A DNA stretch of 64,000 bases from Luteibacter aegosomatissinici (GTDB lineage Bacteria > Pseudomonadota > Gammaproteobacteria > Xanthomonadales > Rhodanobacteraceae), in contig NZ_CP095742.1 in NCBI RefSeq assembly GCF_023078495.1, forward strand, positions 1 to 64,000. Direction: 5' to 3'. The notes under the pieces are model-generated. The model was not told the DNA's origin. It did not search any database and saw nothing but the letters and a program-made list of their open reading frames with translations. Positions within the stretch are counted from its first letter, which is position 1. Every line of letters begins with the position of its first letter. Shown here in pieces: positions 28,518 to 43,578 of this stretch. The translations under genes were made by a program, and so were the position numbers.

Positions 28518-28581
28518 AATGCTGAGGCGTCGAGTCTTACGAGGCAATCCGTCTGCACTTGCGCCGCATCATCCGAACGAG

Positions 28582-29766
28582 CTAGGTGTCGGTCTGAAGG
28601 TTGGTGTCCTGGTCATGCCTGTCAACTCGACGACGCATGGATGCATATCCGCTTGCGACGATCAGCGCGCCCGAAGCGACTAGCAATGAAATGGAAAAGT
28701 CGTGGTGCTTTGCGAAGAATGCGTCGGCAACAAGAGGACCAACAATCAGTCCCGAACCATATGCCGTGCTCATCAGTGCCATCACGTTGTAGCGCACCTG
28801 GTGTGAAACCCGTCGAGCAGCTGGGAGCACGATGGTAACGGTTCCCATGAATGCACCACCCACTAGAACGGCGCTAATGGCGTAGGTGGCGGCAGACGCG
28901 AAGAGTGCGGGAAGTCCAACGCCAATGCCCTGCACAAGGAGATTGATCGACAATGCGTACCGGGTACCAAGTCGGACATGCAGGGAATGCCACAGGAAGC
29001 TCGAAGGTATCGCCGCCACGCCGAAGAGAGCCCAAACGTGAACGGGGTTCACGGCGCCTAATGCACCGCGGACAAACAAAGGAAGGTATGTTGCAGTGAT
29101 GCTTCCGCCAAAACCAGCAAGCATATAAAGCAAGGCAAGCTTACGTACGGTGAGAGGTACGGCATCAATCCATGTCGCAGCGATGGTTGTCCTGGATAGG
29201 CCATGCCTGCGGTGCGACCGTCCCATGAGGACAACAGAAATTATCGTCAGCACAATAGACATGGAAGTGATCACAAGCCAGATGAGCCCGCTATGCAAGC
29301 CAAGCGATCTACCAGCAGCAATCACTTCCGCCGAAAGTGCTGTGCCGACGCCGACTCCCGCGTACAACAACGGCGCACTGTGAGTGTCGCCCTGGTCGTG
29401 CAACAGCCAGAATGAAGCGGCAACCATCGCCACTGCGCTTGCCAGGCCGGCACCAGCGCGAACAAGAATCAACATGACGGGGCCGAGCGGCATAGCCAGC
29501 GCAAGACAAAAGATGACCGTTGCCACCAAGGCCGCGGTGCATTTGTGCCGAGCTCCAATAGAAGGAAACATGCCCGCAAACACCGCACCTATAAGGTAAC
29601 CGGCATTATTCGCCGAAGCAGCCAACGATCCGGCGCTTACCGTCATCAGGCCCTCCTGCACCATCTGCGGATACAGGCCGGTAAACGCGAATCGGCCTAT
29701 ACCCATGCCTACCACCAACGCGAGCGCCGCCGGGAAGGCCGCACGTGGTTCTTTGATGCTCATCAT
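28582..29766 (-). CDS. YbfB/YjiJ-family MFS transporter
   Basis: The 394-residue protein has about twelve membrane helices and the YbfB/YjiJ hallmark opening ALALVVGMGIGRFAFTGLYPQMV. Substrates of this family are poorly known; drug or metabolite efflux is likely. It is convergent with the radical SAM gene, 64 bp away, and divergent from the exported crotonase gene. Two regulatory-looking sequences lie in its promoter: the inverted repeat AGATCACGT/ACGTGATCT at 29770-29816 and a copy of the segment A motif at 29841. A second in-frame ATG follows immediately (MM), so the start is uncertain by one codon. Confidence 0.82.
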   Translation of the reverse strand: MMSIKEPRAAFPAALALVVGMGIGRFAFTGLYPQMVQEGLMTVSAGSLAASANNAGYLIGAVFAGMFPSIGARHKCTAALVATVIFCLALAMPLGPVMLILVRAGAGLASAVAMVAASFWLLHDQGDTHSAPLLYAGVGVGTALSAEVIAAGRSLGLHSGLIWLVITSMSIVLTIISVVLMGRSHRRHGLSRTTIAATWIDAVPLTVRKLALLYMLAGFGGSITATYLPLFVRGALGAVNPVHVWALFGVAAIPSSFLWHSLHVRLGTRYALSINLLVQGIGVGLPALFASAATYAISAVLVGGAFMGTVTIVLPAARRVSHQVRYNVMALMSTAYGSGLIVGPLVADAFFAKHHDFSISLLVASGALIVASGYASMRRRVDRHDQDTNLQTDT

Positions 29767-29769
29767 GCG

Positions 29770-29816
29770 AGATCACGTCATTCCCAGGTGAGCCGATAGC
29801 CTAGGGAACGTGATCT
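29770..29816. promoter_or_regulatory. 9 bp inverted repeat ahead of the YbfB-type MFS gene
   Basis: AGATCACGT (29770-29778) and ACGTGATCT (29808-29816) are exact reverse complements 29 bp apart, starting 4 bp from the MFS start codon. A repressor operator or an mRNA leader hairpin are both possible. Confidence 0.4.
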
Positions 29817-29840
29817 GAAATGGAAGGTCGCATAGACGCC

Positions 29841-29863
29841 CAGCGGCTGATCATTCATGCACA
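29841..29863 (+). promoter_or_regulatory. Segment A motif, copy 1 (CAGCGGCTGA-N8-GCACA)
   Basis: This 23 bp element begins CAGCGGCTGATCATT and ends TGCACA. It lies 75 bp from the MFS start (29766) and upstream of the exported crotonase gene. It matches copies at 34142, 35601 (reverse) and 40158, all in promoter gaps of this island. Confidence 0.6.
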
Positions 29864-30079
29864 TCGTCCAGGTCCAATCATGAACAGCTGTTATGGGAGC
29901 AATGATTTACACCGACGTCGAAGTGGCGGACCGAAACGTCGCAGGTGGTTAGCTAAGCCTGCGCATTTATGATCAACCGACGATCGTGAAATCCGAATGG
30001 TATGAGGCTGCGGCGCTACGCAACATTCGTTGCTGTGGACGTCGTCCGCACCACCGCATACAACTACGAGGATACTTTC

Positions 30080-31051
30080 GTGAATCGCTTTTCGCGCACA
30101 CGCACCAAGTTGTTCCTGAACGCTCGTTCGATCTCCGCCCTTCTTGCTCTCTCGTCACTCGCGCCCATGGTGGTGAATGCCGCTGATTCGGTGCCAGCCG
30201 AACATCACGAAGAGAAATCGCAGGCCAACCAACAGATAAGTGTCACGAAGATCAGCCCGGCCTATTGGCAGGTCACGTTCCACAATCCTCCGTTCAATAT
30301 CTTCGGGCCCGAGTCGATCCCGCAGTTCGAAAAGGTCGTGGCGGCTATTGAAACCGACCCTCAGCTCAAGGTGGTTGTTTTCCAGAGCGACGTTCCAGGG
30401 TACTTCCTCACCCACTACAACTTTGTTCCGCCTCTTTCAGCATCGACGAGCCTGCCAAACGGACCGAGCCGCCTGCATCCGATCCCCGACATGCTGTCCC
30501 GTATAAGCCGCTCGCACGTGGTTTCCATCGCTAAACTACGTGGCCGAGTAACCGGTGTGGGCAGCGAACTTTCGCTTGCCAGCGACATGCGCTTCGCCGC
30601 GCGGGAAAACCTGCAGATCTCTCAGTGGGAAGTCGGCTCCGCGTTTGTTCCGGGCGGCGGCCCGATGGCTCGCCTTCCGCGCCTGATCGGCCGCGGTCGC
30701 GCGATGGAGGTACTGTTGAGTGCTGATAACTTCGACGGCGACACGGCAGAAAAGTACGGTTACGTGAACCGCGCTATGCCCGACGCACAGCTCGACGCCT
30801 TCGTCGACAAGCTTGCGCGTCGTATTGCGAGTTTCGACGGTGACACGTTGGCCGACGTGAAGCAAGCCGTCAACTACGCCACGCTGCCACCGGATTCGGA
30901 ACTGTCTGCTGGGTGGGATCTGTTCATCCGCTCCGTGCAACGCCCCGAAGCCCAGTACCGTATCAACGCGCTGATGAAGCGCGGCCTCCAGACGGACCCG
31001 GAGGTGGAGCGAAACCTGAATCAGTACACCGAAGAAGTCGGCAAGCACTGA
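30080..31051 (+). CDS. Enoyl-CoA hydratase/isomerase-fold protein with signal peptide
   Basis: The 323-residue product (GTG start at 30080, GAGGAT 7 bases upstream) opens with a basic stretch and a hydrophobic segment ending VVNAADS, a convincing signal peptide. The body is a crotonase fold: VTFHNPPFNIFGPESIPQFEKVV is the usual start, RGRVTGVGSELSLASDMRFAA the oxyanion-hole region, and FVPGGGPMARLPRLIGRGRAMEVLL the second signature. Crotonases act on CoA esters in the cytoplasm, so export is odd; the substrate may not be a CoA ester. An in-frame start at 30002 would give a longer cytoplasmic form but lacks a ribosome-binding site. It stands alone, followed by a hairpin. Confidence 0.8.
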   Translation: MNRFSRTRTKLFLNARSISALLALSSLAPMVVNAADSVPAEHHEEKSQANQQISVTKISPAYWQVTFHNPPFNIFGPESIPQFEKVVAAIETDPQLKVVVFQSDVPGYFLTHYNFVPPLSASTSLPNGPSRLHPIPDMLSRISRSHVVSIAKLRGRVTGVGSELSLASDMRFAARENLQISQWEVGSAFVPGGGPMARLPRLIGRGRAMEVLLSADNFDGDTAEKYGYVNRAMPDAQLDAFVDKLARRIASFDGDTLADVKQAVNYATLPPDSELSAGWDLFIRSVQRPEAQYRINALMKRGLQTDPEVERNLNQYTEEVGKH

Positions 31052-31077
31052 ATCACTTTGCCAGGTTGTCCACGTCC

Positions 31078-31109
31078 CCCATTGACGCCGGTCATACCGC
31101 GTCAATGGG
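31078..31109. terminator. Hairpin between convergent crotonase and MRJP genes
   Basis: CCCATTGACGC and GCGTCAATGGG form a perfect 11 bp stem with a 10-base loop. There is no strong T-tract on either side, but the position between two convergent genes suits a terminator. Confidence 0.6.
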
Positions 31110-31138
31110 TGATTAAATAACGTGCAGCAAGCTACGAA

Positions 31139-32332
31139 TCAGTGACCAGACTGCGTCGTAGGACGTCGAATGGTCTTCTTCATCCGCCACAATTGATAGC
31201 GCTCTTCGCCAGGTTTCACCAGGCCCATGAAATGCTCATTGAGCGCACTGGTTGTGAACAGGAGGTCGCCGTCCGGTGTCATCGAGATCGTGTCAGGCCA
31301 GTGAAGCGCGACGTCAGACGCCAGCAGCGTCATAGAGCTACCGGGGCGGTACTCGACAATGCCGTTACGCGTGAGGTCGGTGAGATATACATGGCCGCTC
31401 GCATCGGCGAGTATCCCATCGGTGTTTCCACCGACGTCGCCGAGATCGATCACGGCGGCAGAAAGCGCCACATCACTTGCATGTTCATCGCGCAGGAGAT
31501 CTGCTGCCAGCGCGTAGGCATGTCGGCCGGTTGTCACCGCCCAGTAGAGTGTCTTGCCGTCTGCGGACAACGCAATGCCGTTGATCCCGACCTTCAAAGG
31601 ATTGCCCGGGAGCACATCGTATCCATGGGCGACGAGCGTGACGCCGGGTTCTGGGCTTACATGGGTATCCTTATCGAGCGCGCGGCGTACGTGGCCTGAT
31701 TGAAGGTCGACTACGATAATGCCAGGGTCACCGCCACGTACTCCGCTATCGGAGATGAAGGCCACCTTGCGCTTCTCGTCGACGGCGACGTCGTTGAGAT
31801 AGCTGCCCTTGCGGTCAGCAACGGCATCCAGTGCCACGCGTTTCACCAGCTTGCCCGTTGCCGACTCGTAGACGACCAGCTTCTGTGCGCCCGCGGGGGC
31901 TTCGGATTCACCCGCAACAAAGCCCATATCCAACACCCACACCCACCCGTTGCGTTGGTCGACGTAAAAGCCGAGTACGCTGCGTAGGTGCGTAGCCGGA
32001 TCGCCTGAGGCATCGTTCTCGCTACCGGAGGGGAAGGCTGTGAGGTGCGCGGAGCCCGAGGCTTGCGCGGTATCCAACAGGTTCAACGTCGCAGGCAATG
32101 CAGTGGTAATAAATCGCGGCGTGCTTGCGAATGCGCGTCCAGCCTTGTCGAAGTGCACGCCAGTAATCGGCGCATTAAGCGATACATCTGCTGGAGTGTC
32201 GGGACCCCAGGTGGCGCCATGGTAATCACGCCAGAGCACCGGCTTCGAGTAACTGGCCCCGGAATCGGCCCCCTGCGCGGCAAAAGTACAAATCACCGCG
32301 GCAAGCGCCGCAGTGCGGAACAAAATCTTCAT
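31139..32332 (-). CDS. Secreted MRJP/yellow-family beta-propeller protein
   Basis: The 397-residue product has a signal peptide (MKILFRTAALAAVICTFAAQGADS) and is therefore exported. The remainder matches the major royal jelly/yellow protein family, a six-bladed propeller with segments such as NGWVWVLDMG, YLNDVAVDEKRKVAFISDSG and VGINGIALSADGKTLYW. Bacterial members are of uncertain function; some related proteins are annotated as dopachrome-conversion or lactonase-like. ATG 32332 is chosen because the signal peptide starts there; the open frame extends upstream without support. It follows the CGNR regulator gene on the same strand after 110 bp, with a weak copy of the segment A motif at 32416-32438. 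Confidence 0.8.
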   Translation of the reverse strand: MKILFRTAALAAVICTFAAQGADSGASYSKPVLWRDYHGATWGPDTPADVSLNAPITGVHFDKAGRAFASTPRFITTALPATLNLLDTAQASGSAHLTAFPSGSENDASGDPATHLRSVLGFYVDQRNGWVWVLDMGFVAGESEAPAGAQKLVVYESATGKLVKRVALDAVADRKGSYLNDVAVDEKRKVAFISDSGVRGGDPGIIVVDLQSGHVRRALDKDTHVSPEPGVTLVAHGYDVLPGNPLKVGINGIALSADGKTLYWAVTTGRHAYALAADLLRDEHASDVALSAAVIDLGDVGGNTDGILADASGHVYLTDLTRNGIVEYRPGSSMTLLASDVALHWPDTISMTPDGDLLFTTSALNEHFMGLVKPGEERYQLWRMKKTIRRPTTQSGH

Positions 32333-32415
32333 GGTGATTCTCGAGTAAGGATGGCGGAATGCAACGGCGCGATGATCCCGCCGGCACCTTGACCCGAGTA
32401 GTGATGATCTCCGCT

Positions 32416-32438
32416 CAGTGGATGCGCGTAAACGCACA
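32416..32438 (+). promoter_or_regulatory. Segment A motif, weak copy upstream of the MRJP gene
   Basis: CAGTGGATG, an 8 bp divergent middle, then ACGCACA fills the same 23 bp frame as the strong copies, with about 14 of 23 positions shared with the copy at 40158. It lies 84 bp upstream of the MRJP start. Alone it would not be convincing. Confidence 0.3.
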
Positions 32439-32442
32439 GCTG

Positions 32443-33030
32443 CTAGCTGGTATGGTGCTTCTCGCGACTTCGGTGCGAGCTGACCTTTGCCCTGTTTCCG
32501 CACTGGGCCATGTCGCACCAGCGGCGGCGACCGCCGCGCGAATGGTCATGAAACAGTAGCGTGCAGTCACTACCTGCGCACTGGCGAATACGCGACATAT
32601 CGGGTTGCACAAGCAGAGCGGCGAGTGCCTCGGCAATTGGAACAAGGACGGCATCGGGCTCCTGTGTAGTACGGACCAGCTGCAACTCTGGCTGACCGCC
32701 GCGCTTCCATGCCAGCTGTTGGTGGATCTGGCCTAGTGCTAGCAGTCGGTTGAGTTCGGATGCATCGGCCCACCCGCCTTCAAGACGGCGCTCGACCAGC
32801 TTACGGGCGCTGTCGCGAAACCGGCGCGCGACGACCTTCAGTCCTAGCGTTGCCTTTACCGCGACATCCTGGTCAAGCGCTCCGGCTTGCTTGAGCCATG
32901 CCACCACAGCGGCATCGTCATTGAAGTAATCGCGCCTGCCTTCGCCCACGCCGTACGCGGAGTTTATGAAATCCAGGGCGAGGTTATCGCCGAGAAAGAG
33001 TGGGCTCTCGATGTGCTGGTCAGGATTCAT
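32443..33030 (-). CDS. CGNR zinc-finger transcriptional regulator (ABATE domain)
   Basis: The 195-residue protein has an N-terminal stress-sensing ABATE domain (LFLGDNLALDFINSAYGVGEGRRDYF region) and a C-terminal CGNR zinc finger with spaced cysteines (RIRQCAGSDCTLLF, RRRWCDMAQCGNRAKVSSHR) that binds DNA. Proteins of this type are putative one-component regulators. It is divergent from an exported alpha/beta hydrolase gene, and the 143 bp gap holds two copies of GTAACC-N18-GGTTAC; a third copy lies before another hydrolase gene at 41198. It is thus the best local candidate to bind that site, which is inference from position. Confidence 0.85.
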   Translation of the reverse strand: MNPDQHIESPLFLGDNLALDFINSAYGVGEGRRDYFNDDAAVVAWLKQAGALDQDVAVKATLGLKVVARRFRDSARKLVERRLEGGWADASELNRLLALGQIHQQLAWKRGGQPELQLVRTTQEPDAVLVPIAEALAALLVQPDMSRIRQCAGSDCTLLFHDHSRGGRRRWCDMAQCGNRAKVSSHRSREKHHTS

Positions 33031-33057
33031 GGGTGCGATCCGGGTGATGCGCTCATT

Positions 33058-33128
33058 GTAACCGTATATTGCGTCTTGACAGGTTACGCCGACAATGCGT
33101 AACCTTTAAAACGACAGATATAGGTTAC
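33058..33128. promoter_or_regulatory. Double operator GTAACC-N18-GGTTAC (two copies, 41 bp apart)
   Basis: GTAACC at 33058-33063 with GGTTAC at 33082-33087, and GTAACC at 33099-33104 with GGTTAC at 33123-33128. Both pairs have an 18 bp spacer, and the units repeat at 41 bp, close to four helical turns. A promoter-like TTGACA (33076-33081) with TAACCT (33100-33105) at 18 bp spacing is covered by the inner half-sites, so binding should block transcription of the hydrolase gene. Confidence 0.7.
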
Positions 33129-33173
33129 ATCGTGCTGGGCGCACCGCGCCCGCCTTCTTCATTGGAGCAAGTC

Positions 33174-34127
33174 ATGAACCTCAAGACCCTGATCCTTGGT
33201 GCCGCGACCGCAGTAGCCGTTGCCGGAACTGCCGTGGGCGCCCCCGCGGCGAGTATTGCCACACCCGCCGTTACCTTCCACTACGTCAAGGTAGACGATG
33301 TAACGGTGTTCTACCGAGAGGCTGGCGACCCGCACAAGCCGACGGTATTGCTGCTTCACGGCTTCCCCACCTCCTCCTTCATGTACCGCAACCTGATTCC
33401 CAAGCTGGCCGATCGCTACCACGTGATCGCTCCAGACCTGCCAGGCTTCGGTTTCACGCAGAGCCCCGACCGAGCGCACTACGCCTACACCTTCGAACAT
33501 CTGGCCCAGACGGTTGATCACTTCACCCAGATCGCTGGGCTCAAGACCTACGCGATCCAGGTATTTGACTACGGCGCACCGGTCGGTTGGCGCCTGGCCG
33601 TCGCACATCCCGAGCGCATCACGGCCATCGTGAGCCAGAACGGAAACGCCTATGAGGAAGGCCTGAGTACCGGATGGCAGCCTATCCAGAAGTACTGGAA
33701 GGACGGTAGCCAAGCTAACCGAGACGCCCTACGCGACTTCCTCAAGCTCGACGCGATCAAGTGGCAATACACCCACGGTACCCGCAACCCCGACGACGTG
33801 GCGCCCGAAACCTATACCCTTGACGCCGCCATGGTCAGCCGGCCGGAAAACACTGAGATTCAGCTCGACTTGTTCCACGACTACGCGAGTAACGTGGCCA
33901 TGTATCCTAAATTCCATGAGTACTTGCGTGCGCACAAACCGCCTGTGCTGGCTGTCTGGGGAAAGAACGATCCGTTCTTCCTTCCCGCAGGTGCCGAGGC
34001 ATTCAAGCGCGACGTGCCGACGGCTGAAGTTAAGTTTTACGACACGGGTCACTTTGCGCTCGAGACCAACGGCGATGAGATCGGCGATGAAATCCACCGC
34101 TTTCTTGACGCTAACCTGCGGCCATGA
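33174..34127 (+). CDS. Exported alpha/beta hydrolase, epoxide hydrolase/dehalogenase type
   Basis: The 317-residue protein has a signal peptide (LILGAATAVAVAGTAVGA-PAAS) and an alpha/beta hydrolase fold: HGFPTSS oxyanion region, nucleophile Asp132 in VFDYGAP, an acid near NDPFF and the catalytic His in DTGHFALE. An Asp nucleophile points to epoxide hydrolase or haloalkane dehalogenase chemistry; the substrate cannot be read from sequence. ATG 33174 follows a TTGGAGC ribosome-binding site. It is divergent from the CGNR regulator with the double operator between them, and paralogous in type to the cytoplasmic hydrolase at 41198, which carries the same operator. Confidence 0.83.
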   Translation: MNLKTLILGAATAVAVAGTAVGAPAASIATPAVTFHYVKVDDVTVFYREAGDPHKPTVLLLHGFPTSSFMYRNLIPKLADRYHVIAPDLPGFGFTQSPDRAHYAYTFEHLAQTVDHFTQIAGLKTYAIQVFDYGAPVGWRLAVAHPERITAIVSQNGNAYEEGLSTGWQPIQKYWKDGSQANRDALRDFLKLDAIKWQYTHGTRNPDDVAPETYTLDAAMVSRPENTEIQLDLFHDYASNVAMYPKFHEYLRAHKPPVLAVWGKNDPFFLPAGAEAFKRDVPTAEVKFYDTGHFALETNGDEIGDEIHRFLDANLRP

Positions 34128-34141
34128 GCAATAAATAACGA

Positions 34142-34164
34142 CAGCGGCTGATCAAATATGCACA
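34142..34164 (+). promoter_or_regulatory. Segment A motif, copy 2, upstream of the LysR gene
   Basis: CAGCGGCTGATCAAA then TATGCACA, 23 bp, ending 66 bp before the GTG start of the LysR-family regulator. LysR proteins usually bind near -65 and autoregulate, so the presence of the motif here makes this regulator the leading candidate to recognise it. Confidence 0.6.
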
Positions 34165-34229
34165 GCGGCGGGGGGCCCCTCGCCGCTTAAAGTAATCCGG
34201 TGGCAGCCCGGCACGGGGAGCATCATTCA

Positions 34230-35117
34230 GTGAATGATAAAAAACGCGGCGAGGTCGATTGGGAAGATGTCCGCATCTTCCTGGCGCTGGCTCGGCACGG
34301 CAGCCTCTCAGCCGCAGCGCGGGCCCTTTCGGTGAACCACGCCACCGTGGCGCGCCGGATTCAGTCGCTTGAAGCCAGCATGGGGGAGCGCCTGGCCGAG
34401 CGACGTCCGGAGGGTTATGTGCTGACGGCGGCTGGCACCCGGATCATGGATGTGGCGAGCAATATGGAGACCGCCGCGCAAAGCCTGGGACGCGGCGGAG
34501 CGAGTGACACGCCGACCGGCCTGGTTCGCGTCAACGCACCCCCGGGCCTTGCCCAGGGCTTCCTTGTCAGGCACCTTGCCGACATCCCAGCCCGTCACCC
34601 TGGTCTGGATCTTGAGCTCGCGACGGACCTGCGCTCCATTAGCCTGGAGCGTCATCAGGCCGACATTGCCGTGCGCATAGGTCGCCCCATGGACGGTGAT
34701 TTCATCGCGAAACCTCTTGGCCACATGGCGTTCGGCTTCTACGGCACCGACGAGATCTGTAGTGCGGTGGAACGGGGCGAGCGCAAGACAGTGATCAGCT
34801 TTAACGAAGAAAACGCTGATATGCCCGAGGCGCTCTGGATGGCACGGCACTTCCCCCGGGCAAGAGTTTCATTTCGTGCCAACAACCATGTCGCTCAGGC
34901 TGTCGCGGCGACCCGGGGTGCGGGGTTGGCCTTGCTTCCTCACTATGTCGGCCGTCTACAACCCGGCTTACGCCGTTGCGAGCTCGAGCCGCTACCTGCA
35001 AGCCGAGAGATATGGGTTCTCATGCGCCGCCAGGATCGCACCGATGTACCCATCCGAACGATCGTGGAACACCTGGAGAAAGTGTTCGCCGAGGCACAAG
35101 CACTCTTCGAGGATTGA
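34230..35117 (+). CDS. LysR-family transcriptional regulator
   Basis: The 295-residue regulator has the N-terminal LysR helix-turn-helix (VDWEDVRIFLALARHGSLSAAARALSVNHATVARRIQSLE) and a C-terminal substrate-binding fold that senses a co-inducer. I favour the GTG at 34230, with GGGGAG 11 bases upstream; a GTG at 34200 would add ten residues. A copy of the recurrent island motif lies 66 bp upstream. Nearby genes with the same motif (MFS pump, exported crotonase, VOC protein, Ohr, DUF3237, SDR) may form its regulon. It is convergent with the VOC gene, with six bases between stops. Confidence 0.88.
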   Translation: MNDKKRGEVDWEDVRIFLALARHGSLSAAARALSVNHATVARRIQSLEASMGERLAERRPEGYVLTAAGTRIMDVASNMETAAQSLGRGGASDTPTGLVRVNAPPGLAQGFLVRHLADIPARHPGLDLELATDLRSISLERHQADIAVRIGRPMDGDFIAKPLGHMAFGFYGTDEICSAVERGERKTVISFNEENADMPEALWMARHFPRARVSFRANNHVAQAVAATRGAGLALLPHYVGRLQPGLRRCELEPLPASREIWVLMRRQDRTDVPIRTIVEHLEKVFAEAQALFED

Positions 35118-35123
35118 GTGCAC

Positions 35124-35531
35124 TCAGTTGAGTGGAGTGAATTCAAGGCGTATCCCACCAGGCATGCCACAGATGAAGTGCATGCGTGCGGATCCTGGAC
35201 GTGTGGGGCCAGGTGGAAACTCGATAGTCACGCCAGGAAAGTTCGACACACGCGCGAAGACCGCATGCAAGGCGGCCTCGTCGGAGACGGCGATCGCCAG
35301 GTGGTGGAGGCCGACGTTTTTACGGCGATCAAATGGCGTCGCCTCGGTAGGAAACGCGACACGCCAAAGAGTCAGCGTGATAACTCCATCAGATACGAAA
35401 CCTGCCGGATAGTCGTCGTTCCTGCCAAGGGACTCCCAACCCAGCGCATCGACGAAGAAGTCCATGGCGGTGTCAAGATCGGGAACGGCAAGGCCCACGT
35501 GGTGGATGCCACACGTTGCTGACTGAATCAT
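35124..35531 (-). CDS. VOC-family (glyoxalase/dioxygenase fold) protein
   Basis: The 135-residue protein shows the two beta-alpha-beta-beta-beta modules of the vicinal oxygen chelate fold: GIHHVGLAVPDLDTAMDFFVDALGWE in the first and LHHLAIAVSDEAALHAVFARV in the second, with the metal-ligand type His in each and the late Glu in GGIRLEFTPL. Members include glyoxalase I, extradiol dioxygenases and antibiotic-binding proteins; which activity applies here is unclear. A reverse copy of the island motif lies 70 bp upstream, shared with the divergent ohr gene. Confidence 0.82.
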   Translation of the reverse strand: MIQSATCGIHHVGLAVPDLDTAMDFFVDALGWESLGRNDDYPAGFVSDGVITLTLWRVAFPTEATPFDRRKNVGLHHLAIAVSDEAALHAVFARVSNFPGVTIEFPPGPTRPGSARMHFICGMPGGIRLEFTPLN

Positions 35532-35600
35532 GGTATCACTCGATAGGTCGGATGTGCTGAGCGTCGCATGGCGACCTCACGCAGGCAACGGCAATGCCCG

Positions 35601-35623
35601 TGTGCAGAATCGCTCAGCCGCTG
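35601..35623 (-). promoter_or_regulatory. Segment A motif, copy 3 (reverse), between VOC and ohr genes
   Basis: On the minus strand the 23 bp element begins CAGCGGCTGAGCG and ends TGCACA. It lies 70 bp upstream of the VOC start and 79 bp upstream of ohr, in their divergent promoter gap. Confidence 0.6.
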
Positions 35624-35701
35624 CGCGTACCTCGTGTCTCTGAAGACCCGAAACAGCGCTTTATAGTTTGGGACAACACATAAACCCGAACGGTAAAAAC
35701 G

Positions 35702-36127
35702 ATGTCCGTGAATGTGAAGTACACCACCCGCGCTACCGCTACCGGCGGACGCGACGGCACTGCGCGCTCCGAGGACGGGCGCTTCGAGGCGAAGCTTTCC
35801 ACACCCGCTGAACTCGGTGGTTCGGGCGGGGAAGGCACCAATCCGGAGCAACTCTTCGCCGCCGGCTACGCCGCGTGTTTCATCGGGGCGCTACGCCTCG
35901 CCGGTCGTACCATGAAGGTCGACATCCCGGCCTCGGTGAACGTAACAGCAACCGTGGGAATCGGCCCCCGTACGGAGGGTGGCTTCGGCATTACCGCAAG
36001 TCTCGTCGTTGACCTACCGGGTATTGATGCCACGGTGGCGAACGATCTTGTTGAGCTCGCGTACACAATCTGCCCCTGCTCGAACGCGACACGCAATAAC
36101 GTGGACGTGGGCCTTTCTCTGGCGTGA
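35702..36127 (+). CDS. ohr: Organic hydroperoxide resistance protein Ohr
   Basis: Ohr reduces organic and fatty-acid hydroperoxides with a reactive cysteine, using lipoylated partners as reductant. The 141-residue length is normal. The two catalytic cysteines are visible as Cys59 in AAGYAACF and Cys124 in TICPCSNATRNNVDV; the second motif has an extra Cys126 where many homologs have Tyr. No OhrR regulator gene is adjacent; instead the promoter gap has the island motif. The stop codon overlaps a GTG that could start the next gene (GTGA), so ohr and the DsbA-family gene are likely one operon. Confidence 0.93.
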   Translation: MSVNVKYTTRATATGGRDGTARSEDGRFEAKLSTPAELGGSGGEGTNPEQLFAAGYAACFIGALRLAGRTMKVDIPASVNVTATVGIGPRTEGGFGITASLVVDLPGIDATVANDLVELAYTICPCSNATRNNVDVGLSLA

Positions 36128-36138
36128 GTGGGCGAGCC

Positions 36139-36786
36139 ATGACGACGCGATTGCAGATAGATGTGGTTTCTGATGTGGCATGTCCATGGTGTGCCATTGG
36201 CGTCGCTAGCCTTGGGATCGCGATCGATAAAATTGGCGATGAGGCAGATGCGGAGATCACATTCCACCCGTTTGAATTGAATCCGAACATGCCACCTGGC
36301 GGACGAAGTCGGACGGATCACCTTCGAGCCAAATATGGGATGGAAGAGCTCGACGTGCGCGCGAATCAGGACAGCATCAAAGCTCGTGCACTCGACGTCG
36401 GATTCGACATGCGGCTGACGGAAACTAGTCGCATGTACAACACCTTCGATGCGCACCGGCTATTGGCATGGGCAAAAGAATACGGAAAGCAGCCGGACCT
36501 GAAGCGCAGGCTGTTTGTCCTGAACTTCACCGACCAGGCCGACGTCGGCGACTTCGACGTACTCATCGCTGCAGCCGAATCGGTGGGTCTGGACCGGGCG
36601 AAAGCACGCCAGGTGCTCCAGTCCCAAGCCTACGCTCTCGAGGTGCGTGCAGAAGAGGACGTATGGATCCGGCGCGGCATCAACAGCGTTCCCACGCTCG
36701 TGATTAATCAGCGATACGTCATATCCGGAGGACAGACGCCGGAGGAGTTCGAACGTCAGATCCGCCGCGTGCTGGATGGACCCTGA
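36139..36786 (+). CDS. DsbA-family (FrnE-like) thiol oxidoreductase
   Basis: The 215-residue protein has a thioredoxin fold with an N-terminal CPWC active site (Cys15 and Cys18) and the late cis-Pro region GINSVPTLVINQRYVISGGQTPEEF typical of the cytoplasmic FrnE/2-hydroxychromene-isomerase-like DsbA branch. No signal peptide is present. ATG 36139 (MTTRLQIDVVSDVACPWC) is the better start by homology; GTG 36124 overlaps the ohr stop and would add five residues. Pairing with ohr suggests a thiol-repair or redox-defence role, which is inference. Confidence 0.88.
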   Translation: MTTRLQIDVVSDVACPWCAIGVASLGIAIDKIGDEADAEITFHPFELNPNMPPGGRSRTDHLRAKYGMEELDVRANQDSIKARALDVGFDMRLTETSRMYNTFDAHRLLAWAKEYGKQPDLKRRLFVLNFTDQADVGDFDVLIAAAESVGLDRAKARQVLQSQAYALEVRAEEDVWIRRGINSVPTLVINQRYVISGGQTPEEFERQIRRVLDGP

Positions 36787-36818
36787 TACGAAAGGAAGTG
36801 GCTAATCACACCTGTCGT

Positions 36819-36841
36819 TGTGCGTTTTCCAACCGCGACTG
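36819..36841 (-). promoter_or_regulatory. Segment A motif, weak copy ahead of the MBL-like gene
   Basis: On the minus strand the element reads CAGTCGCGG, a variable middle, then ACGCACA in a 23 bp frame, 51 bp from the start at 36892. The ends match, the middle does not. Support is weak on its own. Confidence 0.3.
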
Positions 36842-36891
36842 CGCAAAGAAAGGAAATTTTCGGAAAGAGACCGTGACCCTATGCTTGGGAC

Positions 36892-37425
36892 ATGTTTCGC
36901 ACCAACCTTTCATTGACATATCTGGGCAGCTGCGCCGTGTTGCTTGAATACGGTGACCTAAGGGTCGTGACCGAGCCAGGATTGGCCGTATCCCGCGGAC
37001 TTGCGCCATTTGAAACGTGCCTGATGAGCTCGGTAACGGGCGCGAGCCTCCTGATTACCGCGACGCCAGGAAGACGCACGCGAGCGCCGCGGTCTCCGGT
37101 CGACACGCTGGGCTTCGCCCTGGGGCGCGATCGACCCGGCGACCTTTTCTACGCTACTGGGAGGTCTGTGTGGTGCGACGAAATGGCCACGGTCGCAGAC
37201 TGCTTTTCGCCCAAAGTGATTTTCACGACGATGGAAGGCGAGGGGCTGATCAACGTTTCCCGCGCATTCCCCGACGCGGTGATAACCGTCGCTGTCGACG
37301 ATCAAAGCGATGAAGCGCGGCCTCGCCTGAAGGACATGGGTCGACCTATCACGCGCGACGAAAGGCCACCAGGCCTACGACTTCTCTATCCGGGGAAGAA
37401 GCTCTGTTTCAACATCGCCGCCTGA
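36892..37425 (+). CDS. Shortened metallo-beta-lactamase-fold-like protein lacking metal ligands
   Basis: The 177-residue protein resembles UlaG-type MBL-fold hydrolases at both ends: SLTYLGSCAVLLEYGDLRVVTEPGL matches the first strands, PGDLFYATGRSVWCDEMATVADCF the usual GDTVWY segment, and PKVIFTTMEGEG a later strand. The HxHxDH metal motif expected after LLIT is missing (LLITATPGRRTRAP instead) and the protein is some 60 residues shorter than the family. It thus looks like an internally deleted, probably non-catalytic derivative. The frame is intact, and an SDR gene follows 41 bp downstream in the same direction. Family placement is moderate. Confidence 0.6.
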   Translation: MFRTNLSLTYLGSCAVLLEYGDLRVVTEPGLAVSRGLAPFETCLMSSVTGASLLITATPGRRTRAPRSPVDTLGFALGRDRPGDLFYATGRSVWCDEMATVADCFSPKVIFTTMEGEGLINVSRAFPDAVITVAVDDQSDEARPRLKDMGRPITRDERPPGLRLLYPGKKLCFNIAA

Positions 37426-37466
37426 CTGTGGCGGCTAGAACTCTCAAAACCACAAAAGGAACCATC

Positions 37467-38177
37467 ATGTCTGACGTCAGGAAAGTTGCTGTTGTAACCG
37501 GCGCATCCCAGGGCCTCGGCGAAGGTATCGTCGACGCACTCCTCGCCCGTGGATATGGCGTCGTCGCCACGTCGCGAAACATTAAGCCTTCGAGCAATCC
37601 GAACGTATTGACGATCGCCGGTGACATCGGTGAGCCGGAAACTGGCAAGCGCATCGTCAAAGAAGCGATGGAGCGATTCGGCCGAATCGATACGCTGGTG
37701 AATAACGCAGGGATCTTTATCGCAAGCGCGTTTACTGATTACACCGAGGAACAGTACCGCGCGAAGCTCAAGACCAACCTCGACGGATTCTTCTTTACCA
37801 CCCAGAACGTGATCCCAGTCATGTTGAAGCAGGGTAGTGGCCACGTCATCCAGATCACCACGACGTTGGTAAGCTACGCCGATACACGTATTCCGTCGGT
37901 CGTCGCCTCGATTACCAAGGGTGGCCTGGATGCTGCAACGCGTAGCCTCGCGATCGAATATGCCTCCCGAGGGATCCGCGCGAACGCCATCGCCCCTGGT
38001 ATCGTGAAGACTCCGATGCATGCGCCCGAGACTCACGAGGCGCTCGCCGCTTTCCATCCAATGCAGCGCATGGGTGAAGTCAGCGATATCGCCGAGGCCG
38101 TGATCTATTTGGAGAACGCGCCATTCATCACCGGCGAAATCCTGCATGTCGATGGCGGCATGATCGCTGGCCATTGA
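37467..38177 (+). CDS. Short-chain dehydrogenase/reductase without the usual catalytic Tyr
   Basis: The 236-residue protein has the SDR cofactor motif TGASQGLGEG (12-21) and LVNNAGIF, so it should bind NAD(P). At the YxxxK site the sequence is VASITKGGL, with Ala in place of Tyr, a feature of some SDR subgroups whose chemistry is not settled. The C-terminal IAPGIVKTPMH and ITGEILHVDGGM motifs are normal. ATG 37467 follows AAAAGGAACC. It sits in a same-strand run: MBL-like protein, SDR, tautomerase, OYE. Confidence 0.85.
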   Translation: MSDVRKVAVVTGASQGLGEGIVDALLARGYGVVATSRNIKPSSNPNVLTIAGDIGEPETGKRIVKEAMERFGRIDTLVNNAGIFIASAFTDYTEEQYRAKLKTNLDGFFFTTQNVIPVMLKQGSGHVIQITTTLVSYADTRIPSVVASITKGGLDAATRSLAIEYASRGIRANAIAPGIVKTPMHAPETHEALAAFHPMQRMGEVSDIAEAVIYLENAPFITGEILHVDGGMIAGH

Positions 38178-38203
38178 CAGACCCTTCTCTCGAGGAAACC
38201 CCC

Positions 38204-38440
38204 ATGCCTATCGTGACGATCCAGGTTACCCGTGAAGGCACCCTGCCTGGAGCCGAGCGTACGACGCGCGAGCAGAAGGAAGCTCTGCACAAGGGCGTCT
38301 GTGACCTGCTGTTTGAGGTGCTGGGTAAGCACCCCGATGACACGTTCGTCGTCTTTCAGGAGATCGAGCTGGAGGACTGGGGGCGGGGAAGCTCATCGGT
38401 CATCGAATACCGAAAGAGGAAGGCTCAGCTGGTCTATTGA
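38204..38440 (+). CDS. Tautomerase-superfamily protein
   Basis: The 78-residue protein begins MPIVTIQVTREG; after Met removal the N-terminal Pro acts as catalytic base in the 4-oxalocrotonate tautomerase superfamily. Its length is slightly above the 60-65 residues of classic 4-OT. A GAGGAAACC ribosome-binding site precedes the ATG, 26 bases after the SDR stop. It probably works on an enol or unsaturated carbonyl compound handled by the neighbouring SDR and OYE; that link is inference. Confidence 0.85.
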   Translation: MPIVTIQVTREGTLPGAERTTREQKEALHKGVCDLLFEVLGKHPDDTFVVFQEIELEDWGRGSSSVIEYRKRKAQLVY

Positions 38441-38460
38441 GCTGCCACGAGCATCTGCAC

Positions 38461-38486
38461 GGCCACCGCACGACGTTGCGGTGGCC
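38461..38486. other. Intercistronic hairpin between tautomerase and OYE genes
   Basis: GGCCACCGCA and TGCGGTGGCC form a perfect 10 bp stem with a 6-base loop, 20 bases after the tautomerase stop and 20 before the OYE start. There is no T-tract, so it is more likely an mRNA processing or stability element than a terminator. Confidence 0.5.
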
Positions 38487-38506
38487 TATATGAGAGGACC
38501 TTTGCA

Positions 38507-39601
38507 ATGACGACGCTATTTTCTGCGGGAACGATAGGCGCCATATCCGTCTCCAATCGGGTAGTCATGGCGCCCCTGACACGCGCACGTGCGGACATGG
38601 AAGGCCTTCCAAGCCGTTACGCCGCTCAGTACTACGCCCAGCGCGCCTCCGCGGGCCTGATCATCACGGAGGCGACCAACATCTCGAAGCAGGCACGTGG
38701 CTACGCCTATACACCGGGTATCTACACAGACGCGCAGATCGTTGCGTGGCGTGAGATTACTGAGGAGGTACATAGGGCTGGCGGAAAGATCGTACTTCAG
38801 CTCTGGCACACCGGTCGCATCGCTCATAGCAGCCTGCACGATGGGAAGCCCCCCGTTGCACCTTCTGAGATTCAGGCTGGCGACATGGTCTTCACCGAGG
38901 ATGGCGCCGCGCGGCCAAGCATGCCTCGTGCCCTGGAGCTCGACGAGATCCCGTCGATCATCGACGACTACGTGCTTGCCGCCCGGCACGCGCGAGCAGC
39001 GGGCTTCGATGGCGTCGAAGTGCACGCGGCCAATGCTTATCTCCTGGACCAATTCATCCGCGACAGCACCAATCGGCGGACCGATGCCTACGGTGGATCC
39101 GTCGAGAATCGAACGAGGCTCCCGTTCGAGGTAACCAAGGCTGTCGCCGATGTGTTTGGCCCGGATCGTGTAGGGGTTCGTCTGTCACCGATTACCCGTG
39201 CCGTGGGCGATACCCCCTTGGATAGTGACCCCGTGGGCACGTACAAGCGGATGGCGGAGCGTCTCGGTACGCTCGGGCTGGCTTATCTGCACTGCGTCGA
39301 AGGCCAGACGCAGGGCGACAATGCAGCGACATCGTTTGACTTTCAGTCGCTGCGCCGCGCATTTGGCGGAAGTTATATCGCTAACAATAGCTATGATCGA
39401 ACGCTTGCGGTAGAAGCGGTGGCGACGGGCCACGCGGATATGATCGCCTTCGGTCGCCCTTACATCGCCAATCCTGACCTGGTGGAACGCCTGCGCGCCC
39501 AGGCTCCAATGGCGGCAGGTGACGAGAAGACGTTCTACGGCGGCGGCGCGGCTGGCTATGTCGATTACCCCGCCCTGGACGGGGTAACCGCGAACGACTA
39601 A
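38507..39601 (+). CDS. Old yellow enzyme family NADH:flavin oxidoreductase
   Basis: The 364-residue FMN enzyme of the NemA/OYE class reduces activated C=C bonds or nitro compounds with NAD(P)H. Visible features are the MAPLTRARAD opening, the active-site pair His173/Asn176 in EVHAANAYLLDQF, the RTDAYGGSVENRTR segment and the C-terminal IAFGRPYIANPDLVERL FMN-binding motif. Length is normal. It ends the same-strand run with SDR and tautomerase, suggesting detoxification of electrophiles. It is convergent with the DUF3237 gene, with a 7-base gap. Confidence 0.93.
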   Translation: MTTLFSAGTIGAISVSNRVVMAPLTRARADMEGLPSRYAAQYYAQRASAGLIITEATNISKQARGYAYTPGIYTDAQIVAWREITEEVHRAGGKIVLQLWHTGRIAHSSLHDGKPPVAPSEIQAGDMVFTEDGAARPSMPRALELDEIPSIIDDYVLAARHARAAGFDGVEVHAANAYLLDQFIRDSTNRRTDAYGGSVENRTRLPFEVTKAVADVFGPDRVGVRLSPITRAVGDTPLDSDPVGTYKRMAERLGTLGLAYLHCVEGQTQGDNAATSFDFQSLRRAFGGSYIANNSYDRTLAVEAVATGHADMIAFGRPYIANPDLVERLRAQAPMAAGDEKTFYGGGAAGYVDYPALDGVTAND

Positions 39602-39608
39602 GGCCGGA

Positions 39609-40085
39609 TCAGAGCACCTCGTAGACGTCGTATACCGGCCCTTCTGGCAGGCGTTTACCTGTACCGACGGCAACAAGGCGGTTGAGCCACGAGTGCTCAG
39701 CCGACCCGGTTTCGAACTGCGCGGTCATGCGGAAATAGTACTCCGACGGATCCACGTGGTCCCCTGCCCGTATGCGGGCGAGCACCTCAGGGCTGCCGGC
39801 GCGCATTCCCTGATAACGCATAGCGATCTGCGCTCCATCATCGGTCCGCAGAACGAGGCGGCAGTCGAGGAGCACGGTGCCATCGTCGATGATCGTCTGC
39901 CAATCTGAGCCACCTTCGAGTATGACGCCATTGAGTCGCGCCCCCGTGAAGTGGCCACCGGCGACGACGCCTACCTGCTTCGCAGGTGCGTTCGTGCTGT
40001 AAGGAAAGACGCCACTGACATGCATCTTGATTGTAAAGAGATGGCGAAGCGTGACGAGAGGCAATGTGGGGATAGTCGCGGTCAT
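39609..40085 (-). CDS. DUF3237-family protein
   Basis: The 158-residue protein matches the DUF3237 family, small beta-barrel proteins of unknown function: PLVTLRHLFTIKMHVSG at the start, GGHFTGARLNGVILEGGSDWQTIIDDGT in the middle, and EYYFRMTAQFETGSAEHSWLNRLVAVGTG at the end are typical. Start at 40085 (MTATIPTLPL) fits the family length. It is divergent from an SDR gene; the 127 bp gap carries the best copy of the island motif, 73 bp upstream of this gene. Confidence 0.82.
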   Translation of the reverse strand: MTATIPTLPLVTLRHLFTIKMHVSGVFPYSTNAPAKQVGVVAGGHFTGARLNGVILEGGSDWQTIIDDGTVLLDCRLVLRTDDGAQIAMRYQGMRAGSPEVLARIRAGDHVDPSEYYFRMTAQFETGSAEHSWLNRLVAVGTGKRLPEGPVYDVYEVL

Positions 40086-40157
40086 GGCGGCGGTTCCTAG
40101 GATTGGTTGGCGTGAATCTAAACAGCCATGCCACGACATGTAACGGCTGTACCTGCG

Positions 40158-40180
40158 CAGCGGCTGATGATTTTCGCACA
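40158..40180 (+). promoter_or_regulatory. Segment A motif, copy 4, between DUF3237 and SDR genes
   Basis: CAGCGGCTGATGATT then TTCGCACA, 23 bp. With the flanking TGCGCAG on the left it forms a loose dyad (TGCGCA and the complement of TGTGCG). It lies 73 bp from the DUF3237 start and 33 bp from the SDR start. Confidence 0.6.
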
Positions 40181-40212
40181 GTAGTTTTCTAGTCGAATAA
40201 AGGATCAAGTCC

Positions 40213-41058
40213 ATGACCGCACCAAACAACCAAAAGGTCTTCCTCATCACCGGGGTTAGCTCCGGGTTCGGGCGTTGCTTTGCAGAGGTCGCTCTGGCCG
40301 ATGGGCATACTGTCATCGGAACAGTCCGGACCGAACATGACAAAAGCGATTTCGAGTCGCTTGTTCCCGGGCGATCGGTTGCCGTGCAACTGGAATTAAG
40401 CCAGTTGGATAGCATAGCCAGGGCCATTGACGGCGTAGTCGAGGTTACCGGCCCTATCGATGTGCTGGTTAACAATGCGGGATACGGCTACGAGGGCCCG
40501 CTGGAAGAATCATCGCTAGAAGACTTGCACCACCAATTCACCGTGAATGTCTTCGCGGCCGTGGCCATGATGAAGGCGGTACTTCCGTCCATGCGTGAAC
40601 GCCGGCGCGGGCGGATCGTAAACATAACCTCGCTGGCCGGGTACGTCGCTGCGGCCGGTATCGCCTACTACGCCGGCAGCAAGTTCGCCCTGGAAGCGAT
40701 CTCAGAAGCGTTGGCGCAAGAAGTGAGCGACTTCGGAGTCCACGTTACTGCGCTCGCACCTGGGGCGTTCCGTACCCAGTGGGCGGGCCGATCCCTCGTT
40801 CGCAACACTCGAAGCATCCCAGACTACGATGGTGTATTCGAACCGGTGCGCAGGGCGCGCATGGCGAAGGATGGAAACCAGCCTGGCAATCCTTATGAAG
40901 CGGCGCGCGTCTTGATGGATATCGTAGACAGCGATAACCCGCCTCGGCATCTGGTGCTGGGAAGCGACGCAGTGGAGACCGTTCGGAAGCAGCTTGGCGA
41001 GACTACACGGCAGCTCGATATCTGGGATCCGGTGTCCCGCTCTACCGACTACAACTGA
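40213..41058 (+). CDS. Short-chain dehydrogenase/reductase (classical type)
   Basis: The 281-residue oxidoreductase has TGVSSGFGRC (13-22) for cofactor binding, LVNNAGYGYEGP, the catalytic Ser in NITSLAGYVAAAG, and YAGSK with the Tyr and Lys of the active site. The length and C-terminal extension match broad-specificity SDRs of the retinol-dehydrogenase-like group. It faces away from DUF3237 with the island motif 33 bp upstream. Unlike the SDR at 37467 it keeps all catalytic residues. Confidence 0.9.
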   Translation: MTAPNNQKVFLITGVSSGFGRCFAEVALADGHTVIGTVRTEHDKSDFESLVPGRSVAVQLELSQLDSIARAIDGVVEVTGPIDVLVNNAGYGYEGPLEESSLEDLHHQFTVNVFAAVAMMKAVLPSMRERRRGRIVNITSLAGYVAAAGIAYYAGSKFALEAISEALAQEVSDFGVHVTALAPGAFRTQWAGRSLVRNTRSIPDYDGVFEPVRRARMAKDGNQPGNPYEAARVLMDIVDSDNPPRHLVLGSDAVETVRKQLGETTRQLDIWDPVSRSTDYN

Positions 41059-41074
41059 TCGTCGAATGAGCTGA

Positions 41075-41105
41075 GCATTCTTGCGATCGCGAATTGCATT
41101 CTTGC
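41075..41105. promoter_or_regulatory. Direct repeat GCATTCTTGC, two copies 21 bp apart
   Basis: GCATTCTTGC occurs at 41075-41084 and 41096-41105, exactly two helical turns apart, between the SDR stop and the GTAACC-type operator of the next gene. It could be a second regulator site. Nothing else supports a function. Confidence 0.35.
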
Positions 41106-41137
41106 ACATTGAAGGAACGCCACATCGATCGTAAGGT

Positions 41138-41167
41138 GTAACCTCATTAAGTAGCTAAAGCGGTTAC
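41138..41167. promoter_or_regulatory. Operator GTAACC-N18-GGTTAC, third copy
   Basis: GTAACC (41138-41143) and GGTTAC (41162-41167) have the same 18 bp spacer as both copies at 33058-33128, 8 kb away. It ends 31 bp before the start of another alpha/beta hydrolase gene, so one regulator, plausibly the CGNR protein, may control both hydrolases. Confidence 0.65.
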
Positions 41168-41197
41168 TAAAGTAAGCCGCGAGATGAGGTAGCGATT

Positions 41198-42166
41198 ATG
41201 GCCGAGATCTACGATCACAACGGCGAGCCCGTTACGCACGGGCGTGCGTGGGTTAACGGTATCCGTATGCATTACGTCACTGCAGGTCATGGACCGGCAT
41301 TGCTGCTATTGCACGGGACGCCGAAGAATCACTATTACTGGTACAAGTTGATACCGTTGCTCACGCGTCATTTCACCGTGGTGGCGCCCGATATCCGGGG
41401 GTTCGGCCATTCCGACAAACCGCCGGCGGAGGAGGGTTACGACAGCCTCACGGTCATGGCGGACCTGACCGAGCTAATGGATTTGCTTGGCCATGCGACG
41501 TTCCATATTCACGGCGAAGACCGTGGTGCGGAGTATGGCTACGTCCTCGCTGCGATGCAGCCAGCGCGGGTGGAGACGCTGTCATTCGGTGAGATGCTTC
41601 TGCCGGGGCTGGGATTCGAGAAGTGGACACATTTCACCCCTGAACACCTGAGTGCACGGTCCCGTGGTGAGGGCATATGGCTTTGGCATCCGCCATTCTT
41701 TTGGCTCCCTCATATCCCCGAAATGCTTATCACGGGGCGGGAGCGCGAGTTTTGGGAGTACTGGATCAAGGCGGAGACGTACAACCCGTACGCCATCGCT
41801 GACGAGGCGATCGATGAGTGGATTGGTTGCCTGAAGGCGCCTGGTGGGCTGCGAGGATGTCTCGAGAGCTACCGCGCCGGTATGAAAAACGCGCGCATTG
41901 TCGACGTATTGAGGGAAACCAAACTCACGCTGCCAGTCATGGCGTTGAGCGCGACGGAGTTCTTCGGCCCGCTCATCGCAGAGCATCTATTGCAGGTTGT
42001 AGACCGCGTCGAACGAAGTGAAATGTTCGAGAAGTGCGGGCATAGCCTCGCGCTGGAAGCCGAAGAACGGCTTGCTGGGTTGCTCCGCCAGTTCATGCTG
42101 GAGACGCCTCGTGAGCATGTGCTGCGGGACGCCGACGTTGATGCATACGTTATCGGGGTGGAGTGA
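41198..42166 (+). CDS. Alpha/beta hydrolase, epoxide hydrolase/fluoroacetate dehalogenase type
   Basis: The 322-residue cytoplasmic protein has HGTPKNHYYW near the oxyanion hole, VVAPDIRGFGHSDKP, nucleophile Asp108 in HIHGEDRGAEYG and the late catalytic His in KCGHSLALEAEE. An Asp nucleophile places it with epoxide hydrolases and haloacid-type dehalogenases. There is no signal peptide, in contrast to the exported relative at 33174. The stop codon overlaps the start of the MFS gene (TGATG), so hydrolase and pump are translationally coupled. Confidence 0.87.
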   Translation: MAEIYDHNGEPVTHGRAWVNGIRMHYVTAGHGPALLLLHGTPKNHYYWYKLIPLLTRHFTVVAPDIRGFGHSDKPPAEEGYDSLTVMADLTELMDLLGHATFHIHGEDRGAEYGYVLAAMQPARVETLSFGEMLLPGLGFEKWTHFTPEHLSARSRGEGIWLWHPPFFWLPHIPEMLITGREREFWEYWIKAETYNPYAIADEAIDEWIGCLKAPGGLRGCLESYRAGMKNARIVDVLRETKLTLPVMALSATEFFGPLIAEHLLQVVDRVERSEMFEKCGHSLALEAEERLAGLLRQFMLETPREHVLRDADVDAYVIGVE

Positions 42167-43380: not shown

Positions 43381-43475
43381 GCGCCTTGGCAAGAGATGTG
43401 TTTGGCGCGTACCGGGATTAGCTGGTGACTATGGCTATATATAGGCATGGTCCACCATTCACACCTTCGTTGACG

Positions 43476-43578
43476 AGGTTCGCGGAAGGCGGGGCTGCAC
43501 CGGGCGTGGGATACGGTGTCCGATACGTCGCAGTTTGTGCCGCCGCGGGTGCATTCGCCACAGGGTGAGCTGTTTTAG
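43476..43578 (+). pseudogene. 3' remnant of the radical SAM gene
   Basis: From 43483 the sequence encodes RKAGLHRAWDTVSDTSQFVP and continues to HSPQGELF plus TAG (43576-43578), the last 32 residues of the PA0069-family protein. The DNA differs at many synonymous sites from both the intact gene end (28422-28517) and the truncated copy end (49388-49483), so it is a third allele. A few upstream bases (AGGT..TCG) may also be homologous. It marks the boundary between accessory segments A and B. Confidence 0.9.

Follow-up and report, generated by a model that had tools for sequence, protein, structure and literature searches.

The inserted block and its motif copies

The stretch analyzed here (hereafter the window) comprises positions 1 to 64,000 of contig NZ_CP095742.1 (assembly GCF_023078495.1) of Luteibacter aegosomatissinici and starts at dnaA. 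It contains a 15-kb inserted block, the redox island, which encodes a LysR-type transcriptional regulator (LTTR). A preliminary description made from the letters alone had reported a 23 bp motif, CAGCGGCTGA-N8-GCACA, in the promoter gaps of this block and had proposed a LysR regulon. The regulator and the sites predicted from sequence are listed below, with scores from two matrices built from LysR relatives (start-anchored / motif-aligned).

34230..35117, + strand: LysR-type regulator, GTG start; PF00126 E=2.5e-17, PF03466 E=3.8e-21; aligned with relatives
34215..34220, + strand: Shine-Dalgarno sequence GGGGAG of the window lysR, read from the sequence, 9 nt before the GTG
29841..29863, + strand: candidate operator in the MFS/crotonase divergent gap; exact consensus; 17.6 / 19.6
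32416..32438, + strand: candidate operator before MRJP (start 32332); 3 mismatches to the consensus; 22.3 / 20.6
34142..34164, + strand: candidate operator upstream of lysR; best of the window by both matrices, 24.7 / 28.0
34228..34250, + strand: putative decayed ancestral operator on the start codon of the window lysR; 18.4 / 15.5
35601..35623, - strand: candidate operator in the VOC / Ohr-DsbA divergent gap; exact consensus; 15.7 / 17.2
36819..36841, - strand: candidate operator before the MBL remnant-SDR1-tautomerase-OYE unit; 19.8 / 19.6
40158..40180, + strand: candidate operator in the DUF3237/SDR2 divergent gap; exact consensus; 17.4 / 20.7

A pattern search of the window returned the four exact copies at the positions and in the orientations first reported (29841+, 34142+, 35601- and 40158+), and all four lie between genes, as had been stated. 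In the host genome (4,994,364 bases) the motif has 4 exact matches, 2 with one mismatch and 14 with two. No exact copy exists there beyond these four, which are confined to 10.3 kb; in its exact form the motif is not frequent across the genome. Allowing up to two mismatches, a reversed control pattern gave 27 matches in the same genome against 20 for the motif, so that among the genome matches the exact copies alone stand out. Exact copies were absent from the other 22 genomes of the genus, and the other 232 genomes of the family held 7 in 6 genomes, the control pattern giving 8 in 8 genomes (counted from the table). In a search for CARYGGCTGA-N7-YGCACA across the 51 genomes that contain a LysR relative, only the window genome exceeded two exact matches, with four inside 10.3 kb. 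The likeness among the copies is limited to ∼23 bp and the flanks are unlike. At up to three mismatches the window holds seven matches, which is not unusual (shuffle mean 4.28; 12 of 100 shuffles reach seven); the weak copies at 32416 and 36819 named in the preliminary description were thus unconvincing on its consensus and needed evidence beyond it.

Distances to start codons were determined with starts chosen by us, some of them by subtraction. On one side the gaps were 74 bp to MFS, 78 bp to Ohr/OsmC and 72 bp to DUF3237 (start 40085), and at the weak copies 83 bp to MRJP and 50 bp to the MBL remnant. On the opposite side they were 69 bp to VOC, 32 bp to SDR2, 138 bp to crotonase and 65 bp to the GTG of LysR (34230), the gene which had been said to follow a strong copy and does. 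A spacing of 66-75 bp, as first described, is roughly right, the gaps ranging from 32 to 138 bp. Site 34142 has no divergent gene on its other side, and for the CGNR-regulator/hydrolase pair (32443-34127) the scans gave no site.

The lysR start codon in relatives

The HTH_1 and LysR_substrate domains of the window LysR both exceed the gathering score, which places the protein among the LTTRs, and the alignment with close relatives showed a strongly conserved helix-turn-helix. Such relatives were present in 3 of 60 other nearby genomes (four proteins, 54-71% identity; next best ∼38% or less). In three of the four, a motif copy with two to three mismatches lay exactly over the LysR start codon, and the fourth had a weaker copy in the same place. 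The idea that missing upstream copies in relatives speak against LysR was rejected, as the copies sit on the start codon. A coding coincidence at the LysR start of the three relatives was likewise rejected, given the frozen codons and free-standing copies described below.

A profile search of genome contigs with a five-protein alignment (the window LysR and its four relatives) yielded 76 relatives from Proteobacteria and Myxococcota, and in 64 of them a motif copy overlaps the regulator's own start codon. For this count a site had to score at least 13 and to lie in frame on the start codon; each locus was scored without its own copy, but words of the same sequence in other loci were kept. Such a score was not attained by any of 4000 stretches of 150 bases drawn at random from 400 kb of the window genome. 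The 64 comprise 52 of the 54 loci numbered L052-L105 and 12 of the remaining 22. The usual start word is CAATGGCTGATNAAAAACGCACA, the ATG of which is that of lysR. Hosts include Bradyrhizobium, Sphingomonas, Burkholderia and Pseudomonas and, at ∼40% identity, the myxobacteria Corallococcus, Pyxidicoccus and Archangium. L105 has a split LysR match with a broken frame. Bordetella genomosp. 13 (L075) has a good copy 32 bp upstream and a decayed copy at the start, as in the window. More distant LysRs from Caulobacter, Azospirillum and myxobacteria (L112, L114; L106-L110, L124) also retain the start-codon word and have a different divergent gene, isochorismatase-like by eye.

Codon usage and Shine-Dalgarno counts were taken from 49 of the 54 loci; five (L059, L067, L075, L083, L105) were left out since the reported match start was not the start codon of the motif. 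Codon 7 (Thr7) was ACA in 48 of 49, a codon used for 10% of Thr residues in the gene bodies. Ala2 was GCT in 36 of 37 (gene bodies 8%), Thr2 ACT in 11 of 11 (7%), Asp3 GAT in 37 of 37 (39%), Gln4 CAA in 16 of 16 (21%) and Lys5 AAA in 38 of 39 (25%). The N-terminal peptides vary (e.g., MADQIRT, MADHFRT, MTDCFRT). Judged by these codons, the start-codon word is kept at the DNA level and not as a peptide.

Copies also occur away from lysR starts. SDR genes follow such copies at 71 bp in L064 and L066 and at 77 bp in L083, a transporter-like open reading frame (ORF) follows one in L063, and another is near OsmC in a similar island of Oxalicibacterium (L062). Those in L062, L063 and L083 have one mismatch to the consensus of the preliminary description. 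The free copies begin CGGCGG, CAACGG, CAGCCG, CAGTGG or TAGCGG, to which the CAGCGG of the window is close. In Sphingomonas aerophila a strong free copy (24.9) with flank and -10 lies 5.3 kb from lysR (L079:2679-2701, +).

The relatives' sites were then applied to the window as matrices. The start-anchored matrix used the start regions of the relatives only, with the tblastn start as anchor (33 distinct words from 54 loci). Its top seven in the 64 kb were 34142 (24.7), 32416 (22.3), 36819- (19.8), 34228 (18.4), 29841 (17.6), 40158 (17.4) and 35601- (15.7), followed by 13.0 for the eighth; the two highest scores across 400 kb of this genome were 17.2 and 14.7. The motif-aligned matrix, for which the window pattern chose the place within ∼100 bp of each LysR start, separated better, with 15.5-28.0 for the same seven versus a best background of 12.8. 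Since the relatives' matrix gives its highest window scores to seven island sites, both weak copies become convincing as likely members, and 34228 is taken as the decayed ancestral operator; it differs from the consensus at 6 of 15 core positions and lacks the flank (p=0.64). The weakest of the six island operators by matrix is 35601. A match at 29960- (12.6, ninth, start-anchored; 12.7, eighth, motif-aligned) is not claimed as a site.

Promoter layout, proposed mechanism and alternatives

In the relatives, AAAATTCGCTATC lies at -19 to -7 of the motif, with TA at -10/-9 in 53 of 54, and a second TA at -40/-39 of the motif is present in 51 of 54. Read in the direction of the divergent gene, the second TA matches a -10; by our reckoning the motif would then span roughly -51 to -73 and the first element roughly -32 to -44. 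LTTR recognition sites lie near -65. A recognition site upstream of the divergent target's -35, together with a second element at -35, is the layout described for LysR regulons, and the relatives show it. In 31 of 54 relatives the motif and the divergent start codon (30 ATG, 1 GTG; chosen among candidates) are 69-81 bp apart; in the others the start codon is nearer or farther (65-212 bp) or ambiguous.

The layout recurs in part in the window, the -10 at four of six sites and the flank at three of six (single-site p-values, a shift of one base allowed). The -10 is in place at 29841 (p=0.0027), 35601 (p=0.010), 40158 (p=0.0054) and 36819 (p=0.0001), and the flank fits at 36819 (p<0.0001), 32416 (p=0.0023) and 40158 (p=0.0093). 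Site 36819 retains both in the exact register of the relatives and is probably the ancestral target site. The four -10 elements, and the spacing of 72-83 bp to divergent genes at four sites, fit the usual LysR layout.

Toward lysR, 48 of 49 relatives have TA at -12/-11 relative to the ATG, and 41 of 49 have TANNNT. A Shine-Dalgarno-like word before the lysR start was found in 0 of 49 relatives with the embedded operator, and in 5 of 9 other gene starts of the window taken as control. With a -10 just before the ATG and no such word, the relatives' lysR has the features of a leaderless, self-regulated gene and is predicted to be leaderless. The window lysR does not belong to this class: its Shine-Dalgarno sequence is present, the start-codon copy is decayed and an intact operator lies upstream. 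In a tree of 63 LysRs, a subset of the relatives, the window LysR groups (97/97) with those of Pseudomonas agarici, a gammaproteobacterial metagenome-assembled genome and Oxalicibacterium faecigallinarum, all three with the embedded operator, and L075 falls in another well supported group (99/96). Since the window LysR is nested among embedded-operator LysRs, leaving the start codon is probably derived.

From the sequence comparisons we conclude, with a probability of about 0.88, that the motif is the recognition site of LysR 34230-35117, with an ancestral operator on its own start and further operators in the inserted block. The sequences as such establish the sites, their geometry and a shared origin with those of the relatives. 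The evidence strongly supports an LTTR regulon with six operators within the block and LysR as its regulator. This supports the regulon first proposed, as 64 of 76 relatives carry the start-codon motif and their matrix recovers the four strong and two weak sites. The MRJP and SDR-tautomerase-OYE units, put forward earlier as possible members, gain from the same ranking, 32416 and 36819 being in its top seven and the latter keeping flank and -10.

Several results weigh against this conclusion. The -10 is not in place at 32416 (p=0.36) and 34142 (p=0.77), and the flank is not significant at 29841 (p=0.15), 34142 (p=0.14) and 35601 (p=0.25). No single position carries a strict T-N11-A pair in all copies; a T11-N11-A23 pair does fit three of the four strong window copies and is the majority form in the relatives (T11 22 of 31, A23 30 of 31), with no clear dyad around it. 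Under the start-anchored matrix the best background hit (17.2 in 400 kb) outscores 35601 (15.7), the MBL remnant start at 50 bp from its site is outside the usual range, and 10 of the 22 further relatives fail the start-codon test.

The motif might be bound by another regulator, such as the CGNR/ABATE protein (32443-33030) or an unlinked factor, with lysR as a mere target. The CGNR gene lies within the island and adjoins site 32416, and a CGNR homologue adjoins LysR in L062 and L075. However, such homologues are listed in only 2 of 54 loci, and the start-codon copy accompanies LysR across 64 relatives although the divergent neighbor is not constant (an SDR or an MBL hydrolase, and another, small hydrolase-like protein in myxobacteria), and we regard another regulator as unlikely. 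The word at the lysR start could also be a translation signal of leaderless mRNA, or a conserved N-terminal peptide, to which the window copies are unrelated. Its place on the start codon, the 0 of 49 Shine-Dalgarno-like words and the AT-rich codons would agree with this, but neither the frozen synonymous positions, nor the copies upstream of other genes in L062, L063, L064, L066 and L083, nor the recovery of intergenic window sites by a start-region matrix do, which makes this origin very improbable. Hardly credible at all is a short dispersed repeat, or a spread by duplication, without a regulatory role: the copies do cluster in one inserted block, yet only ∼23 bp are alike, exact copies are absent outside the island, the distances to start codons are regular and the ancestry lies at lysR.

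With LysR as the binding protein, the ancestral regulator would have had a single operator, on its own start codon. LysR bound there would block its own, probably leaderless, transcription, as RNA polymerase and LysR would compete for the same DNA, and the same bound protein, at about -51 to -73, would help initiation at the divergent promoter of the SDR or MBL hydrolase. In the window lineage, an operator copy would have arisen 65 bp upstream, the old copy decayed and lysR gained a leader and a Shine-Dalgarno sequence; operators would also have come to lie in five further promoter regions of the 15-kb block. Binding at these sites may activate the genes 72-83 bp away and repress lysR. The sites would share one inducer, perhaps a reactive organic compound, a suggestion based on the gene families only (OYE, Ohr, VOC, SDR, DsbA).

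We consider it fairly probable that there is a widespread LysR clade with the operator in its own first seven codons, where it would dictate the N-terminal peptide and couple leaderless initiation to self-repression. Lineages would escape by an upstream copy (the window and, probably independently, Bordetella genomosp. 13, L075), the freed site drifting to CAGCGG/CAACGG, and in the window lineage six promoter regions would be served. If true, this is a natural case of a transcription-factor site constraining the N-terminus of its own protein, and the escapes reveal the form of the site once the coding constraint is lifted. What began as a guess from four similar strings would become a regulon defined by its regulator, by an ancestral operator and by sites open to testing. 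A regulator travelling with its operators in one block would explain how a detoxification-like set is switched as a unit after transfer.

Insertion of the block and comparison with known systems

The remaining features of the block are as follows.

28518..43478: inserted block (15 kb) with a copy of a radical SAM gene end on either side; flanking repeat, lower GC
36892..39601, + strand: MBL remnant-SDR1-tautomerase-OYE unit (Pfam)
36892-37425, + strand: MBL-fold remnant (Pfam)
37428-38177, + strand: SDR1 (Pfam)
38232-38510, + strand: small ORF, called a tautomerase in the preliminary description; no Pfam hit
38507-39601, + strand: OYE (Pfam)

Homologues of MBL and SDR1 stand divergent from LysR in the relatives. 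The MBL remnant has 177 aa versus ∼260 aa in relatives, and by eye the SHDQHID metal-site stretch is missing. The Oxalicibacterium island (L062) shares homologues of VOC, MFS, SDR1, LysR, CGNR, hydrolase, OsmC and MRJP.

The block is flanked by a 100-bp repeat (28418-28517 and 43479-43578, 86%) corresponding to the radical SAM gene end, and a third, longer copy is present at 48644-49482 (91%). Genome G010 has an intact radical SAM gene with a chloride-channel gene 4.5 kb later, and the interval between them contained no homologue of the block genes at E 1e-10. Pfam showed no integrase among the ORFs submitted to it, and plasmid records, searched at near identity, had no match to the block. Extra partial radical SAM copies occur in several genomes of the genus, so the 3' end of the gene looks like an insertion hotspot. 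In genome G007 of the same genus, the same hotspot (L190) holds other cargo, with OYE, hydrolase and CGNR homologues. In the window the three gene ends delimit two adjoining blocks: the redox island and another, in which an ABC-three-component (ABC-3C) set at 44067-47706 (CTD7, middle component MC3, DUF3732 protein) is a candidate defense system. Internal repeats of 66-81% identity are present at 23593-26064 within long ORFs around 21.7-27.1 kb.

What is probably new here, as far as the sequences indicate, is an operator embedded in a probably leaderless lysR start and abandoned by the window lineage; searches of open-licence PMC papers brought up no LTTR whose operator lies on the start codon of its own gene. 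AcuR (TetR family; PMC3017554) and AnsR (GntR type; PMC9145765) are likewise self-repressed and leaderless; their mRNA begins with the start codon, and the operator is situated at the promoter or the 5' end. They are of other protein families, and the leaderless start was measured there and is predicted here. LysG-lysE of Mycobacterium tuberculosis also combines an LTTR, overlapping divergent promoters and a leaderless transcript, but the leaderless gene is the target lysE rather than the regulator, and the inverted repeat is in the gap (PMC5648196). The best NCBIfam model for the window LysR is GcvA, far below the cut-off (75 versus 288 bits). GcvA, IlvY, OxyR and MetR are LTTRs with a divergent target, for which overlapping promoters, target activation, negative autoregulation and a site near -35 are described (PMC5002191, PMC8407307). 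They resemble the present system in that the regulator is divergent from its target. Their sites are described as intergenic (PMC5002191, PMC8407307), whereas those of the relatives studied here coincide with the first codons of the regulator, and, unlike the systems described there, the block in the window would serve six promoters.

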